Shown in pieces: positions 21,729 through 28,541 of a stretch of DNA of 64,000 bases. This DNA is from Arthrobacter sp. MSA 4-2. GTDB taxonomy: Bacteria > Actinomycetota > Actinomycetes > Actinomycetales > Micrococcaceae. The stretch spans positions 186,001-250,000 of the forward strand of contig NZ_JAEKGC010000002.1 in NCBI RefSeq assembly GCF_016405885.1. The letters run 5' to 3'. The position numbers were made by a program, and so were the translations under genes. Each line of letters opens with the position of its first letter. Position 1 is the stretch's first letter. The notes under the pieces are model-generated. The model saw only the letters and a program-made list of their open reading frames with translations. It searched no databases and was not told the DNA's origin.

Positions 21729-23096
21729 TTACCGGACGGTTGGTGCTTCGCTCGCTCCCGGAGCCGCCTGGGGTGCGGGCCTGCTGTAGGATTCGGCCTC
21801 CTCGAACGTCCCGCGCGGGGTCTGCAGCCCGCGCAGTCCGGCGGTGTCGCGCCCCAGCCAGAGGTTGTTCCACCACCCCCACAGCACCCGCCACTTCCGC
21901 TCCCAGGTCGGAATGGCCAGCACATGGTATCCGCGGTGCATCACCCAGGCGGGGAATCCCTTGACCACGATCGGGCCCGACTGGAACACCCCGGAGCCAA
22001 GGCCCAGGGTGGCCACCGCCCCAAGGTTGCGGTGGAAGTACCTCGTCGCCTCGCCGCCGCGCAGGGTGTCCCGCAGGTTCCGGGCGAGCAGTTTGCCCTG
22101 ACGGATGGCGTTCTGGGCGTTCGGGACGGTGAAGCCGCCGACGCCGCCTCCGGAGAGGTCGGGGATGGCCGCAATGTCTCCGGCCGTCCAGGCATCGGCA
22201 ACCGGGGTGTCGTCGGTGCCCACCCGCAGGTCGGCCCGCGCCCTCAGGCGTCCGCGCTCGTCGATCGGAAGGTCGGTGTGCCGCGCGAGGGCGGGGTTCG
22301 CAAGGACTCCGGCGGTCCACACCAACAGCCCTGTTTCGAATTCCTCGCCCGTGGAGAGCCGGATAGTCCCCTCCACGGCGGAGTCGAGCTGGGTGTTCAG
22401 GTGGACCTGCGCCCCGCGGGCGGCAAGATGCCTGAGCACCCACCGGCTGGTCTCCTCGGAGACCTCGGGCAGGATCCGGCCGGTCGCCTCGATCAGGTGG
22501 AAGTGCGTCTCGGCAGGACTCAGTTCCGGGTAGCGCTTCAGCGTGGCCGTGGCCAGCGCCCGCAGCTCGCCGAAGGCCTCGATCCCTGCGTATCCGCCGC
22601 CGACGAACACGACGGTCAGCAGTTTCTCCCGGGCCGGGCCCGGGGGAAGTGACGCGGCCATGTCGATATTGCGCAGCAGCGTGTCCCGGATGAACACGGC
22701 CTCCTCGATATTCTTCAGCCCGACGGCCTGCGCGCCGACCCCCGGGATGGGGAAGGTGCGGGTGACCGCGCCGCCGGTGACGACCACGATGTCGTAGGTC
22801 TCCGTGTCCTCGTGCCCGTCAGGGAACTGGAGCGTGGCGGTCTTCGCCGCGTGGTCGAGGTAGCTGACTTTTGCGGTCAGCAGGCGGGTCTTCCGAAGGT
22901 GCCGGCGGTGCAGGATCACGCTGTGCCGGGCCTCGATCGACCCGGCCAGCACCTCCGGGAGGAACGGCTGATACGTCATGTAGGGCAGCGGATCGACCAT
23001 CGTGACCTGCGCCTCGCCGGGGCGGAGGTACTTCTCCAACCGCCAGGCGACGTAGAAACCGGCGTAACCGCCGCCGATAATGAGGATTCTGCGCAT
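21729..23096 (-). CDS. ndh: Type II NADH dehydrogenase
   Basis: 455 residues. NDH-2 is a membrane-associated, non-pumping flavoprotein passing electrons from NADH to quinone. The FAD-binding ILIIGGGYAGFY is at the N-terminus, the NADH-binding VVFVGGGYAGIEAFGEL in the middle, and the second FAD motif AWTAGDIAAIPD follows. The C-terminal third holds the amphipathic membrane-anchoring part with WERKWRVLWGWWNN. It lies 190 bp after the AhpD-like gene on the same strand. Confidence 0.93.
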   Translation of the reverse strand: MRRILIIGGGYAGFYVAWRLEKYLRPGEAQVTMVDPLPYMTYQPFLPEVLAGSIEARHSVILHRRHLRKTRLLTAKVSYLDHAAKTATLQFPDGHEDTETYDIVVVTGGAVTRTFPIPGVGAQAVGLKNIEEAVFIRDTLLRNIDMAASLPPGPAREKLLTVVFVGGGYAGIEAFGELRALATATLKRYPELSPAETHFHLIEATGRILPEVSEETSRWVLRHLAARGAQVHLNTQLDSAVEGTIRLSTGEEFETGLLVWTAGVLANPALARHTDLPIDERGRLRARADLRVGTDDTPVADAWTAGDIAAIPDLSGGGVGGFTVPNAQNAIRQGKLLARNLRDTLRGGEATRYFHRNLGAVATLGLGSGVFQSGPIVVKGFPAWVMHRGYHVLAIPTWERKWRVLWGWWNNLWLGRDTAGLRGLQTPRGTFEEAESYSRPAPQAAPGASEAPTVR

Positions 23097-23286: not shown

Positions 23287-23754
23287 TCAGGGGTTGACCT
23301 CATAGGCACTGCTGATGGCGATGCGGTTGTAGCTGTTGATGACCAGGGCCACCCATGACACCGCGGACATCTGCCCCGGGGAAAGGTGGGCCGCGGCGGA
23401 CTCGTAGAGACCCGTGTGGGAGTGGGAGTCGCGGATGTCCGTGATGTACTCGGCCAGCGCAAGTGCCGAACGTTCCTTTTCGTCGAAGTACCCGCTTTCC
23501 CGCCATGCGGGCAGCAGGCTCAACCGCTCGGCGCTCTCGCCCTTCCCGAGGGCGTCCAGTGTGTGGATGCGGAGGCAGAACGCGCACCCGTTGATCTGGG
23601 AGACCCGGATCTTGACCATTTCGATCAGCAGGGGTGAGAGCCCTTCGGCGAGCGCGGCCTCGTCCGCACGCTTCGCCACCGCCGTGAGTGCCTTGTACGG
23701 CTCCGGGTGCTCCGATCCGATGTTCGTCCGCCCGGGCTGTGCCTTGATCGTCAT
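23287..23754 (-). CDS. Carboxymuconolactone decarboxylase-family (AhpD-like) protein
   Basis: 155 residues from ATG 23754. The redox motif CAFCLRIH (CxxC plus downstream His) is typical of AhpD-like alkylhydroperoxidase-fold proteins, which act as small peroxidases or thiol reductants. The frame extends upstream but MTIKAQPGRTNI is the usual family beginning. It lies between a TetR gene and ndh, all on the minus strand, so a role in oxidative or electrophile stress is plausible but not shown. Confidence 0.9.
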   Translation of the reverse strand: MTIKAQPGRTNIGSEHPEPYKALTAVAKRADEAALAEGLSPLLIEMVKIRVSQINGCAFCLRIHTLDALGKGESAERLSLLPAWRESGYFDEKERSALALAEYITDIRDSHSHTGLYESAAAHLSPGQMSAVSWVALVINSYNRIAISSAYEVNP

Positions 23755-23880
23755 GCTGTTGGTTCCTTCGATGGCTTGGAGTTCCGGCGCCTGGTGGTGC
23801 GCTGGTTCCACTATCGCGCGGCGGGGCCCGGACCGAGGCAGGAATGGGATGAAGAGGCACCGATCGTTCCACCCGGCGGC

Positions 23881-24561
23881 CTAGTTCCGGGACCTGTAGG
23901 ACTCCCGGTACGGTGCGGAGGCGGTCCCCTCGACAGCGAAGCGGGCCAGTGCCCGCAGGAACGGCCCGTCGACGTCCTGCCCGGTGGCGATCAACCTGTG
24001 GTGCAGGGCCCCGTAGACCGCGTCGATCACCATCACCAGGTCCACGTCGTCGCGGACCTGGCCGCGGAGCTGGCCCCGGCGCAGGATCACCAGGAACCCA
24101 TGCCGCCGTTCGCGCAGCAGTGTCTGGCGGAACTGGACGGCGAATTCCTCGCTGCGGATGGCCTCCGCCAGGAGGTTCGCCACGGTGGACGCCGCCCCGC
24201 CGACCTTCAGGCAGTAGGTCAGCGACACCAGGTAGGAGTGGAGGTCCCGGCCCACATCGCCGGTGTCCTCGACCGTGGTGAGCAGGTTCGTCTTGTAGGT
24301 GAAGGCCTCGAGGACGAGCAGCTGACGGGATGGCCAGTGCCGGTACAGGGTCGACTTACTCACCCCCGAGGCCCTGGCAACGGCATCGATGGTGACGGCG
24401 TCGTAGGTCAGCCGGTCCACCAGGGCGCTGGCGGCCTTCAGGACGCGTGCGCGTACCTCGGCCTCGTGTGAGGCGATCAACGGATGCGCGGGATCGGCCA
24501 CGCTGCGCAGGGCCACCCTGGCGGTGGGTGCGCGGCCGACGGCACCGGTATCAGGCCGCAT
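23881..24561 (-). CDS. TetR-family transcriptional regulator
   Basis: 226 residues. The DNA-binding helix-turn-helix TIDAVARASGVSKSTLYRHW lies near residues 57-76; the C-terminal domain resembles the TetR_C_11-type group (LLAEAIRSEEFAVQFR, then RRGQLRGQVRDDVD). Its start lies inside the 3' end of the sigma-factor gene (11-bp overlap), so both are probably made from one message. Target unknown; it may control the sigma/sortase module or the AhpD-like gene after it. Confidence 0.9.
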   Translation of the reverse strand: MRPDTGAVGRAPTARVALRSVADPAHPLIASHEAEVRARVLKAASALVDRLTYDAVTIDAVARASGVSKSTLYRHWPSRQLLVLEAFTYKTNLLTTVEDTGDVGRDLHSYLVSLTYCLKVGGAASTVANLLAEAIRSEEFAVQFRQTLLRERRHGFLVILRRGQLRGQVRDDVDLVMVIDAVYGALHHRLIATGQDVDGPFLRALARFAVEGTASAPYRESYRSRN

Positions 24562-25117
24562 GCCAGGCGCCCAACCGCCCGCGAAGGTGTGTGAGCCCCC
24601 TGCGGATATGGCTCTTGACGGTCCCCAGCGGAAGATTGAGCAGCGCCGCGATCTGCTGGTGCGTCAGGTCCTCGTAGAAGGCGAGCCGCAGGATGGAGCT
24701 GCGGGGCTCCCCCAGCAGCTGAAGCTCCGTGTCGAGGGCCACCCGGTCCGTCACGGCGTCCACTTCCCGTGCGCGGTTCCGAAAATTCCGGAGATCCGTG
24801 TGCATGCCCCACCGGGCCACCAGATGGTTGTGCCGGCTCCGGGCGGAGAGACTGTCGTTGACCACATTCCGGCAGATGCCGAAGATCCACCTCGGCACCG
24901 TGCCGGACCGCGGATCGAAGCTGTCCCGGAAGCGCCAGGCCCGCACGAACACGTCCTGCGTGATGTCGGCGGCCACTGCGCGGTCGTCCACGGACCGCAG
25001 GGCAACGGTGTAGACCAAGGGGGCGAACCGCCGATAGGCAGCGATCAAGGCTTCCTCGTCCCCGGCGAAGAACTGTGCGTCAAGCTGCGGTGTCCACTCG
25101 AAGCCTGGAGAGATCAC
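24551..25117 (-). CDS. ECF-type RNA polymerase sigma factor
   Basis: 188 residues. Sigma region 2 (ALRSVDDRAVAADITQDVFVRAW) and region 4 (ILRLAFYEDLTHQQIAALLN then LPLGTVKSHIRRG) are intact, with a SigK-like spacing. The GTG start has a GAGGAG ribosome binding site. No zinc-binding anti-sigma factor gene is adjacent; the next gene is a TetR regulator overlapping by 11 bp and the one before is a sortase. Confidence 0.92.
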   Translation of the reverse strand: MISPGFEWTPQLDAQFFAGDEEALIAAYRRFAPLVYTVALRSVDDRAVAADITQDVFVRAWRFRDSFDPRSGTVPRWIFGICRNVVNDSLSARSRHNHLVARWGMHTDLRNFRNRAREVDAVTDRVALDTELQLLGEPRSSILRLAFYEDLTHQQIAALLNLPLGTVKSHIRRGLTHLRGRLGAWHAA

Positions 25118-25250
25118 GCTTCACTCCTCTAGCGCAGTGCGGGCCCGGCACCGCGCCAAAAGACGGCCTGCTGTCCTTCACTGCCTCCTCCCGGCGTGTG
25201 GGAGGTGTGGGGTTCAACTGATCAGCGGAGGGACTGCACTGAGACCGCGT

Positions 25251-25985
25251 TCAGAGGGGCAAGGCTGTAAGGACAACATTATCCTCGTAATCGCCCTTCT
25301 CGGGCAGCCATTTTCCACCGCACGTAATGATCTTGAGCTGGGCGGGGCCGTCACGCCGAAACACCTCGGATCCGTTGAGGGTGGCCTTCGGCACGTTCTT
25401 CACTTCTGTCACCTCATACCGCAGTGACCGCCCGTCGGCGAGGCCGACGGTGATGACGGTGCCCGGCTCCACGGCCCTGAGCTGGGCGAAGGGCAGCACC
25501 TCGGTCTGGCTGTCGACGTGGGCGGCGATGACGGCGTTCCCGGCCTTCGAGCCGGGCGCGGGCCCGTAGCGGTACCAGCCCGCTTCCCAGAAGCTGTTCG
25601 GGATCTCCATGGCATCGTTCTTGTCGACCCCCACATCGACCACGTTGACGGAAATGCCGGTGTTGGGGATGTCAAGGGACACGGGGGGCACGGGGGGCGG
25701 CTCGGCGTCGGCCTTGGCCGGCCGGACCGGGATCTCTTCGGGAGGCGGCAGCACGGGCACAGGGGGCGGCGGCGCGCCCGTCGGCTTCCGCGTCGGGTTT
25801 GTTTCGGGCAGCACGGGCGGCGACGCCGGGCCCACGGCCTCCCGCGGGGACGCCACCTCGGCCGCGGCCGTCATGCCCTGCTGCGGCGCCGGGGCGGACC
25901 AGAGGCTCACCGAGCAGCAGATGGTGAGCACGCCGGCCGCGACCGACGCCGCAGTCAGTGCGAAGGATTTTCGTTGTTGGTGCAC
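25251..25985 (-). CDS. Class F sortase-like protein
   Basis: 244 residues from a GTG start: an N-terminal membrane/signal segment (about 9-27), a Pro-rich linker (about 50-102) and a sortase domain. Catalytic His156 (AAHVDS) and Cys222 (IITCGG) are visible. The usual Arg before the last strand is not evident (GDYEDNVVL). Sortases join surface proteins covalently to the cell wall. It is preceded by a DUF4397 surface protein gene (68 bp gap), its likely partner, and followed by the ECF sigma gene. Confidence 0.88.
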   Translation of the reverse strand: MHQQRKSFALTAASVAAGVLTICCSVSLWSAPAPQQGMTAAAEVASPREAVGPASPPVLPETNPTRKPTGAPPPPVPVLPPPEEIPVRPAKADAEPPPVPPVSLDIPNTGISVNVVDVGVDKNDAMEIPNSFWEAGWYRYGPAPGSKAGNAVIAAHVDSQTEVLPFAQLRAVEPGTVITVGLADGRSLRYEVTEVKNVPKATLNGSEVFRRDGPAQLKIITCGGKWLPEKGDYEDNVVLTALPL

Positions 25986-26053
25986 AGGATGGGTTCCTCG
26001 GTCGTGCGCTGGGCGGGGTGTGCGTCCGTCTGCAACGCACACCCCGCAACGTG

Positions 26054-26887
26054 TCAGGCCCGGGCGGTGCGCCTCCGGCCTGCCACCGCGGCGCCCCCCA
26101 GAAGTGCAAGCAGCAGTGCACCGAGGCCGAGGCCGAGCGCCGCGCCGTCATTGTTCTCCGCACTCTGTGCGGCCAGACCGGACTGGCCGCCTGGGACAGC
26201 CCCCGGAGTGGACTGAAGGCCCTCGATGACCTGGGTGGCCAGCGCGAGGTTTCCGCCTTCGAGGCTTCCCCACGCGTAGACGATCGTCGAGGTGCCCTCG
26301 GCGAGGTTGAGGTCGGCTGGGCCGATCACGGGCTCGGTGGTGCCTGCGGCCGCGACCGCTGCCGACACCGTCCCCGGAGCGGTGCTCAATGACGCCTCAC
26401 CCGGGTTGCTCAGGTTCGGGACGATCGGTGCACCGCCGGCGAGGACGTCCACCGCCGGAGCAGCGGCAACATGCCGTACAGTCAGCCGGGCCTTGCCCGC
26501 TTCCACGGGGGAGACATCGTTGGTGTAGAAGTTGGCCGTCGGATTCCCCGCGGCGTCGAGGTTGGCAGTGGCGGTGTAGTTGCCGCCGGCCTCAAGGGTC
26601 ACGTCAACGGGACCGATGACCGGCGCCGATGCATCCGGGGCGTCCGCAGCCGTCACCGCCAGCTGGTAGTTTCCGGCGGGCAGCGGGAGCGGACCTGCAA
26701 GCTGGCCCGGAGTGAAATCATCGAGGGTGAGAGCCCCATTGACGTAGACGTCGACCGTCAGGTCGGGGACCGCGTGCAACACTGACAACGATGCCTGGGA
26801 CTGGGTCTCGGCTGCCGAGGCCGGACCGGCCATGGCCGCGGCGCCCATCACCAGCACGGTTCCAACGGTATACAAGCTTCTTCGCAT
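26054..26887 (-). CDS. Secreted DUF4397-domain protein with C-terminal membrane anchor
   Basis: 277 residues from ATG 26887 with an AAAGGAG ribosome binding site. A signal peptide is seen, with cleavage near residue 25 (ASA-AE). Two DUF4397-like repeats follow, each with a VxHAxPxxxVDV-type strand (SVLHAVPDLTVDV near 35 and TVRHVAAAPAVDV near 137) and an APVIGPVDV/EPVIGPADL echo. The C-terminus has a hydrophobic segment and RRRTARA, as in sortase substrates, but no LPxTG. A PGGQSGLAA stretch precedes the segment. Likely the substrate of the adjacent sortase. Confidence 0.85.
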   Translation of the reverse strand: MRRSLYTVGTVLVMGAAAMAGPASAAETQSQASLSVLHAVPDLTVDVYVNGALTLDDFTPGQLAGPLPLPAGNYQLAVTAADAPDASAPVIGPVDVTLEAGGNYTATANLDAAGNPTANFYTNDVSPVEAGKARLTVRHVAAAPAVDVLAGGAPIVPNLSNPGEASLSTAPGTVSAAVAAAGTTEPVIGPADLNLAEGTSTIVYAWGSLEGGNLALATQVIEGLQSTPGAVPGGQSGLAAQSAENNDGAALGLGLGALLLALLGGAAVAGRRRTARA

Positions 26888-26917: not shown

Positions 26918-27034
26918 CGTTTCTGCTGACACCGGTACTACCCGGAGGCGGCCCCGTAGGGATGCACAACGGGCAATTTTTTCGGCAATTAGAGTATCGA
27001 AGCCCGGCCGGGACCCGGCAGGAGGCCGGCCGGC

Positions 27035-27658
27035 CTAACCTGCCGGACGCAGCGCCGGCTGGACCAGGATCAGGTCGGGGCCGAACCGTTCGTCGAGTGA
27101 GCGCTGGATGTCGCCGGCGTCGTAGATCACGCTGACCACCAGGAAGCCCTGGGTGGTCCAGGAGCTCAGGACGGCGGGGTCGCCGGAGGCGTGGAGTTCC
27201 TGCTGGATGCGCTGGAGCTGCGGCTCGTCGCCCGCGCCGGTCCTGCCCCCGGACAACCGCGGGTCCTCGAACGGCATCGCGTCGTACAGGGACAGCGGAA
27301 TGGGCGCCCGCGTCGAGGTGAACTCCGTGCCGTCCCAGGTCCCGAACACCGCATACGTCCCCCAGGTCACCCCCGAGGCGCTCTCCGACTGCTCCACCGC
27401 GGACCAGTCCCAGCCGTTGATGACCGGTCCCGAGCATTGGGGCGGGTAGGACTCCGCCACCGGCCCCAGGCACAGTTCGGCCGGGCTGCCGTCCTTCTGC
27501 AGAACGGTTCCCTGCCCTACCAGCTCGGCGGAGGCGGACACGTTGGAGACGGAATCCGCCGGTGCAGCCTGCCGGCGCGGGGCATCGGCTCCGCAGCCCG
27601 AAAGGACGACCACCACAGCCGCGGCGGCGCCAAGGGACATCAACGTCCTGAAGCTCAT
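27035..27658 (-). CDS. Putative lipoprotein of unknown function
   Basis: 207 residues from ATG 27658. A lipoprotein signal is clear: MSFRTLMSLGAAAAVVVV followed by the lipobox LSGC, lipidated Cys near residue 22. The mature part contains LCLGPVAESYPPQCSGP, with two further Cys that could pair, and ends in a segment reminiscent of a substrate- or metal-binding domain without clear family. It is 147 bp upstream of the DUF4397 gene on the same strand, so it could share its promoter region, but a link is not shown. Confidence 0.8.
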   Translation of the reverse strand: MSFRTLMSLGAAAAVVVVLSGCGADAPRRQAAPADSVSNVSASAELVGQGTVLQKDGSPAELCLGPVAESYPPQCSGPVINGWDWSAVEQSESASGVTWGTYAVFGTWDGTEFTSTRAPIPLSLYDAMPFEDPRLSGGRTGAGDEPQLQRIQQELHASGDPAVLSSWTTQGFLVVSVIYDAGDIQRSLDERFGPDLILVQPALRPAG

Positions 27659-27770
27659 GCGGATATGATCCCCGATTCCTAGGGGCGGCGGAACGTGTTC
27701 GGCGGAATCGGCCCCGGATCGTGACCCGGGCCGCAGCGGGCCGCCCCATCCTCTGGCCCAGCCGCCGGCG

Positions 27771-28541
27771 TCAGGTGAAGAAAACCATCCGCACCAGGGC
27801 CACAGTTCCCACGGTGATGATGATGCTTCGAAGCGCCACCGGGGGAAGCCTGCGCCCGTAGCGCGCACCGATGAAGCCTCCTGCAAGCGAGCCGCAGGCG
27901 ATCAGCAGCACCGCCATCCAGTCGATGAGCTCCCACGCTGCGAGCATGAAGATCCCCGCGGCGACCGCGTTGACCGCGGTGACCAGCACGTTCTTCACCG
28001 CGTTGATCTGCTGCAGCGCGAGCGCCGTCACGGTGCTCATCAGGCCGACGACGAGGACGCCCTGGGCGGCGCCGAAATACCCGCCGTAGACGCCGAGGAC
28101 CAGGACCCCGGCCAGCAGCCCGGCGTGCCCCCTGCCCGGCTGCGGACCCCGGCCCTCCCGGTTCCGCTGAGCCGTCCGCCGCTGGAGAGCCGGCCCGAAG
28201 GCGACCAGCAGCAGGCCCAGGCCGATGAGGACCGGGACGATCGCGGCGAAGGCCTCCGCCGGCAGGACCAGGAGCAACAGCGCGCCGCCAACCCCGCCGG
28301 CCGCGGATGCCGGCAGCAGCCGAAGGAGCAGCCGCCGGTTCGGGGCCAGCTCCCTGCGGTATCCCCACGCCCCCGAAAGTCCCCCTGCCACGAGGCCGAT
28401 GTTGTTGGAGATGTTGGCCACCAGCGAGGGATAGCCGAGGAGCAGCAGCACGGGAAAGGTCACGAGCGTTCCGGTCCCCACCGCCGCGTTGATCATCCCC
28501 GCCGCAAAGCCGGCGAGCAGGATGGCAGCCGATTCAATCAA
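27771..28541 (-). CDS. TauE/SafE (TSUP) family membrane permease
   Basis: 256 residues, about eight membrane segments in two halves. The family half-repeats begin GFAAGMINAAVGTGTLVTFP and VLVLGVYGGYFGAAQGVL. TSUP proteins export or import sulfite, sulfonates or other small organic anions. The TTG start overlaps the end of the upstream oxidoreductase gene by 8 bp, so the two are translated from one message; a shared sulfur-related role is possible. Confidence 0.9.
   Translation of the reverse strand: MIESAAILLAGFAAGMINAAVGTGTLVTFPVLLLLGYPSLVANISNNIGLVAGGLSGAWGYRRELAPNRRLLLRLLPASAAGGVGGALLLLVLPAEAFAAIVPVLIGLGLLLVAFGPALQRRTAQRNREGRGPQPGRGHAGLLAGVLVLGVYGGYFGAAQGVLVVGLMSTVTALALQQINAVKNVLVTAVNAVAAGIFMLAAWELIDWMAVLLIACGSLAGGFIGARYGRRLPPVALRSIIITVGTVALVRMVFFT

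Follow-up and report, generated by a model that had tools for sequence, protein, structure and literature searches.

The window analysed here is a stretch of 64,000 nt from Arthrobacter sp. MSA 4-2 (positions 186001-250000 of contig C22 in genome G000, an assembly of 3.59 Mb in 35 contigs). On its minus strand it carries consecutive genes for a DUF4397 surface protein, a class F-like sortase, an ECF sigma factor and a TetR-family repressor, followed by a CMD/AhpD-like gene and an NDH-2-like gene (Table 1). The sigma and tetR genes overlap by 11 nt (24551-24561, minus strand). The initial annotation had described the first four as a same-strand run with this overlap; they lie where it placed them and all four domains were matched in Pfam, while neither the DUF4397 protein nor the TetR protein reaches a curated NCBIfam cut-off. 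Its list stopped short, however, of the CMD and NDH-2-like genes, which belong with tetR. The window's species and two close relatives, A. crusticola (G202) and G220, are hereafter referred to as the fused clade. A conserved ORF 5' of the DUF4397 gene (27038-27811) gave no Pfam or NCBIfam match; its dN/dS among the three fused species is 0.10-0.18.

Table 1. Genes and putative regulatory features of the locus (positions within the window).
Feature	Coordinates	Strand	Evidence
Sigma-type promoter GCATCC-N17-GGTAGTA, 5' of the DUF4397 gene	26936..26965	-	Comparison of upstream stretches, genome-wide pattern search
DUF4397 protein gene	26054..26887	-	Pfam PF14344, 9.4e-32
Class F-like sortase, GTG start at 25985	25251..25985	-	PF04203, 4e-18; NF033748, 127.8 bits (cut-off 166)
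ECF sigma factor (SigK/PRK12519-like) lacking both SigK cysteines	24551..25117	-	Sigma70_r2, r4_2
Start of tetR, probably left over from the rskA start (~11 initial codons)	24529..24561	-	Alignment with rskA starts, offset and null tests
TetR-family repressor gene with an apparent fusion to the rskA start	23881..24561	-	PF00440 (TetR_N), PF16859 (TetR_C_11)
28-bp block conserved in the tetR-CMD gap; candidate operator for TetR, promoter of CMD, or both	23841..23868	-	Alignment, pattern search
CMD/AhpD-like gene, ancestral tetR neighbour	23287..23754	-	PF02627
NDH-2-like pyridine nucleotide-disulphide oxidoreductase, after CMD	21729..23096	-	PF07992

A conserved DUF4397-sortase-sigma operon

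The DUF4397, sortase and ECF sigma genes make up an operon that is conserved together with its promoter, and tetR is not a member of it. This operon is present in many Arthrobacter-like bacteria. Of 197 genomes of the family searched, 45, counting that of the window, gave a sigma hit at 1e-30, and 40 of the other 44 were compared over stretches of up to 16 kb, four being left out. The DUF4397 and sigma genes are found together at all 40 family loci, with the sortase gene in between at 38 of them. An RskA-type anti-sigma gene follows sigma at 40/40 (39 recognized by pattern, L036 by reading), and RskA_C (PF10099) was confirmed by Pfam in each of the three relatives tested. No TetR ortholog adjoins sigma at these 40 loci; two weak TetR matches were detected, both kilobases away. 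Similarly, rskA follows sigma in 78 of the best 80 named loci, drawn from 546 relatives, the remaining two being A. crusticola SLN-3, which is an exception, and one contig end, which is not evaluable. Within the genus, sigma was detected at 1e-30 in 20 of 38 genomes, 17 of which have RskA and three TetR. Similar sortase/DUF4397/sigma neighbourhoods in Actinobacteria, which the initial annotation mentioned, are borne out by the 40 family loci and the best 80 named loci. TetR, which it took for a member of that neighbourhood, occupies this place in just three of the genomes searched (the window's, G202 and G220), and the conserved fourth gene is rskA.

Several loci showed peculiarities of their own. 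In A. agilis, rskA is partly read as N, and the genus genome G197 has a weak RskA score. At L062/L300 (G171) a frameshift or stop interrupts sigma and rskA is open, the reverse of the window, while at L222, L246 and L297 the sortase reading is split across two frames, reflecting a frameshift or a sequencing error. The broken L062 was dropped from the DUF4397 and sigma alignments and the G202 sortase from the sortase profile; alignment A2 leaves out 10 of the 40 family loci.

The arrangement of the relatives, in which an ECF sigma, an RskA_C anti-sigma, a surface-protein gene and a sigma site make up one unit, resembles the mpt83-sigK-rskA cassette (SigK/RskA, ECF18, ECF19). Unlike in that cassette, the surface protein is a DUF4397 protein with its own sortase. 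Our literature search, which covered few subscription journals, found no description of a DUF4397-sortase-sigma operon or of an rskA-tetR junction.

Regions 2 and 4 are both present in the sigma factor. It scores 96.1 bits against PRK09646 (SigK), below the cut-off of 226, and matches the solved SigK structure 4nqw at 7.8e-11, third behind two other ECF sigma factors. SigK cysteines 133 and 183 correspond to E131 and R181 in the window's protein, based on an alignment by eye and a deduced offset in chain numbering. An extract of PMC7509140 reports that RskA is more often abnormal or absent where SigK-type sigma factors lack both cysteines, and that the cysteine-less SigK of Nocardia is active without RskA; absent or truncated RskA proteins as such are already known. 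According to the same extract, RskA of M. tuberculosis also activates SigK, so that loss of RskA could lower sigma activity and would not necessarily result in full activity.

A loose form of the promoter element, GCA[TA]C[CT]-N14-19-[AG]GTA, was found 5' of the DUF4397 gene in 43/43 upstream stretches versus 0/43 reversed stretches; 17 of the 43 have the strict form, GCATCC-N15-18-GGTAGTA. In G202 the promoter deviates (GCATCT, shorter spacer). Across the window's genome the pattern GCATCN{16,20}GGTAGTA has a single match, at the DUF4397 promoter, versus three for the reversed control; by number this match does not exceed chance, and the pattern is too short to define a regulon. Summed over 20 other genomes it gave 45 matches versus 28 for the control; 18 of the 45, in 16 of the 20 genomes, lie just 5' of a DUF4397 gene (positions read by eye).

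The DUF4397 protein and its sortase

The DUF4397 protein has a signal peptide, beta-sandwich domains, a VPGG box, a C-terminal membrane helix and an RRR tail, and contains no LPXTG. Its AlphaFold model comprises 16 strands and a C-terminal helix (mean pLDDT 77.7), and the solved folds nearest to it are PepT transporter domains of the extracellular kind (best E 8.9e-6, TM-score to query 0.46). This predicted likeness gives no function; a DUF4397 profile run against the PDB returned only matches at E 0.16 and worse. The sortase carries the motifs of two of the three catalytic residues, His and Cys (AHVDS, TCGG; the third is an Arg), and exceeds the PF04203 cut-off (65.8 versus 26.6 bits). Class F (NF033748) is its best-scoring class model, although at 127.8 bits the match stays below the curated cut-off of 166. 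No solved relative was found at 0.01.

To relate the tail to the sortase, we scored 176 DUF4397 copies: the family survey and the fused clade supplied 43, the genus of G187 and the 80 named loci the others. For the G187 genus 70 places were taken, 30 of them best-scoring and 40 hand-picked, 39 of the latter being tail-less. Some genomes occur in more than one set; the 172 evaluable copies represent 151 distinct cores, four copies were not evaluable, and sortase presence was scored by frame end. A sortase lies downstream of every evaluable tailed copy (119/119) and is absent from 51 of the 53 evaluable tail-less copies, the other two being followed by a tailed copy. None of 121 tails contains LPXTG, and 114 of them show VP followed by G/A/T/S and then by G, A or S. 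As the tail label changes just twice on a quick tree, the covariation is strong but represents few independent events. We infer from it that the DUF4397 protein serves the neighbouring sortase as its dedicated substrate, recognized through a tail devoid of LPXTG. The sortase would probably anchor the surface protein, and the sigma factor would probably turn both on.

A comparable situation is described, in an extract of PMC13251363, for Actinoplanes missouriensis, where srtF1 and srtF4 adjoin a gene whose secreted product, a possible substrate according to that extract, has a basic tail and a membrane segment and lacks a pentapeptide motif; deletion of all four class F sortases of this organism gave no phenotype. 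The window shares with these genes a sortase next to an LPXTG-less secreted protein with a membrane segment and basic tail, and differs in that the partner is a DUF4397 protein whose tail covaries with the sortase over the evaluable copies.

Related arrangements were noted elsewhere. A second sortase of the window's genome (L002, 1495-3048, contig C11 of G000) follows a secreted-looking protein with a membrane helix, an RRR tail and no LPXTG, the same architecture as the DUF4397 pair with another partner. L039, L040, L167-L204 and L206 form a clade of tail-less DUF4397 paralogues without sortase, some of which have their own sigma and rskA genes while others stand alone; several of their genomes also have the tailed operon. 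In Cryobacterium (L268, L271), tandem DUF4397 genes consist of a tail-less copy and then a tailed one followed by a sortase.

Loss of rskA and the rskA-tetR junction

A profile of RskA matched at 8.5e-91 to 1.6e-103 in seven comparison genomes and no better than 8.8e-6 to 1e-4 in the three genomes of the fused clade. In the window's genome it detected no ortholog. Relocation of rskA elsewhere in that genome was considered and rejected, the only match (1.6e-5) being to the N-terminus of a gene located after a different sigma gene. The initial annotation saw no anti-sigma gene, and indeed none adjoins sigma. Unlike in the mpt83-sigK-rskA cassette, tetR has taken the place of rskA, apparently through a start-codon fusion, and no adjacent RskA_C gene was found in the window, G202 or G220. 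Judged by comparison of these genome sequences, rskA is absent and the junction is new.

The origin of tetR can be traced within the genus. TetR matches at 1e-15 were found in 7 of the 38 genus genomes: the gene follows sigma in the window, G202 and G220 and sits at a separate locus in G031, G079, G116 and G215. CMD adjoins tetR in all seven, the window included, and the NDH-2-like gene adjoins CMD in six, again including the window, G215 being the one without. The four genomes with tetR-CMD elsewhere have RskA at 6.3e-97 to 8.9e-99 or 8.5e-91. Beyond the sigma block itself, the flanks of this block in G031, G079 and G116 have no match to the window; two separate loci have therefore been brought together.

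ECF41 and ECF56 sigma factors have CMD-type neighbours and a C-terminal extension. The window resembles these groups by the CMD gene near an ECF sigma gene, but its sigma factor ends after region 4 and its CMD gene came with tetR.

The rskA gene overlaps sigma by 14 nt in genus relatives and tetR does so by 11 nt in the window; the first ~11 codons of tetR match rskA starts at a 3-nt offset. Past the overlap, the tetR start compared with seven rskA starts shows on average 11.7-12.3 identical nucleotides out of 21 at offset 3, versus 2.7-6.9 at other offsets. Among 40000 sampled start-codon stretches, fractions of 0.0005-0.0014 reached this mean and 0.001-0.015 the maximum. Gapped local alignment past the overlap gave a weaker result, with null fractions of 0.04-0.08 by mean and 0.02-0.31 by maximum, for which reason we grade the remnant test as modest. 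Homology to native TetR proteins picks up again a few codons past the remnant. Taken as sequence evidence, the match strongly suggests that tetR is read from the old rskA start codon.

In the three fused species, each of the eight genes tested keeps an open reading frame, with pairwise dN/dS of 0.02-0.22. As judged by these ratios, which are 0.10-0.135 for sigma and 0.05-0.13 for tetR, both proteins are under purifying selection. Sigma shows only two fused-specific changes at sites with 85% or higher conservation among the other rows. As to faster evolution of sigma after RskA loss, the results are mixed. The mean identity of sigma to seven outgroups is 0.514-0.523 in two fused species versus 0.576-0.587 in three unfused ones. 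Relative-rate tests on sigma fell below 0.05 with 4/8 outgroups against G031, 2/8 against G079 and 1/4 against G116; they did so with 3/8 outgroups for the sortase and 0/8 for DUF4397.

Proposed regulatory wiring of the rearranged locus

We propose that an autoregulated ECF sigma factor transcribes the DUF4397, sortase and sigma genes from one promoter as a surface-protein cassette. In relatives, an RskA anti-sigma factor, whose gene overlaps the sigma end, would hold sigma back. In the three-species clade, the sigma block and a tetR-CMD(-NDH2) locus would have been joined and rskA lost except for its start, tetR now being read from the rskA start codon inside the sigma operon. The sigma factor, devoid of the two cysteines tying SigK to RskA, would work without an anti-sigma factor. 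The new wiring would run mainly from sigma to TetR, with sigma setting the TetR level and TetR acting on the CMD promoter, rather than from TetR to sigma. Taking the scheme as a whole, from the sigma-driven cassette, the lost rskA and the tetR start to this wiring and DUF4397 as sortase substrate, we lean towards it, with somewhat more confidence than doubt.

The 28-bp block between tetR and CMD occurs as one site in each of the 7/7 genomes, whereas the reversed control pattern gave none, and it is kept upstream of CMD in the fused species. It is the only conserved candidate for a TetR operator, and it may also be nothing but the CMD promoter. A matrix of this block found nothing above chance in the stretch upstream of NDH2, nor in the DUF4397 promoter and the two gaps of the sigma operon (p 0.15-0.84). 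This last result argues against a takeover of sigma by TetR, in which TetR would repress the DUF4397 promoter or bind sigma and a small molecule would replace the extracytoplasmic signal. Such a takeover would fit the overlap of tetR with sigma and its retention beside sigma in three species. An extract of PMC8999054, citing Casas-Pastor 2021, also presents TetR as conserved in the ECF203 neighbourhood and proposes TetR repressors as possible regulators of that group. The window is like ECF203 in that an ECF sigma gene adjoins a tetR gene and unlike it in that tetR is a clade-limited replacement, beside sigma in 3/20 sigma-bearing genus genomes. On balance we hold a takeover to be rather unlikely. 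Where the initial annotation suggested that TetR may replace the anti-sigma factor as the control, the replacement stands for the gene's position, while for control the matrix leaves no operator candidate in the sigma operon. A bolder combination, in which the class F-like sortase reads a VP[GATS]G-type tail as a one-enzyme/one-substrate pair and the graft of tetR on the rskA start made the sigma switch of the A. crusticola clade sense a cytoplasmic ligand, appears improbable to us.

Alternatively, sigma may merely have been deregulated after RskA loss, TetR keeping its old job at CMD and borrowing a promoter. The retained 28-bp block at CMD is consistent with this, as are the SigK-activating RskA variants of M. 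bovis and M. orygis and the truncated RskA of Nocardia described in the PMC7509140 extract. Such hitch-hiking alone does not account for an in-frame rskA start kept in three species, for which selection for TetR translation would nonetheless suffice, and we regard it as a possible, if doubtful, explanation. Control of sigma by another anti-sigma factor encoded elsewhere is very unlikely: at least one other sigma gene of the genome precedes a gene whose N-terminus is anti-sigma-like, yet the RskA profile matches only that N-terminus and only at 1.6e-5. We give hardly any weight to the notion that the locus is decaying and its arrangement functionless. The deviating G202 promoter and the broken sigma gene of G171, another species, would agree with decay, while the open reading frames and low dN/dS of the eight genes in three species, and the scarcity of fused-specific changes at conserved sigma positions, speak against it.

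Under the favoured scheme, the fused clade would present a sigma factor that has lost its anti-sigma partner and gained a one-component regulator as new neighbour. The states before and after this change are both alive in one genus, and the rewiring is therefore directly testable. In addition, for class F sortases, enzymes whose physiological roles the PMC13251363 extract describes as unknown, the covariation of tail and sortase would provide a concrete substrate together with a candidate box for its recognition.
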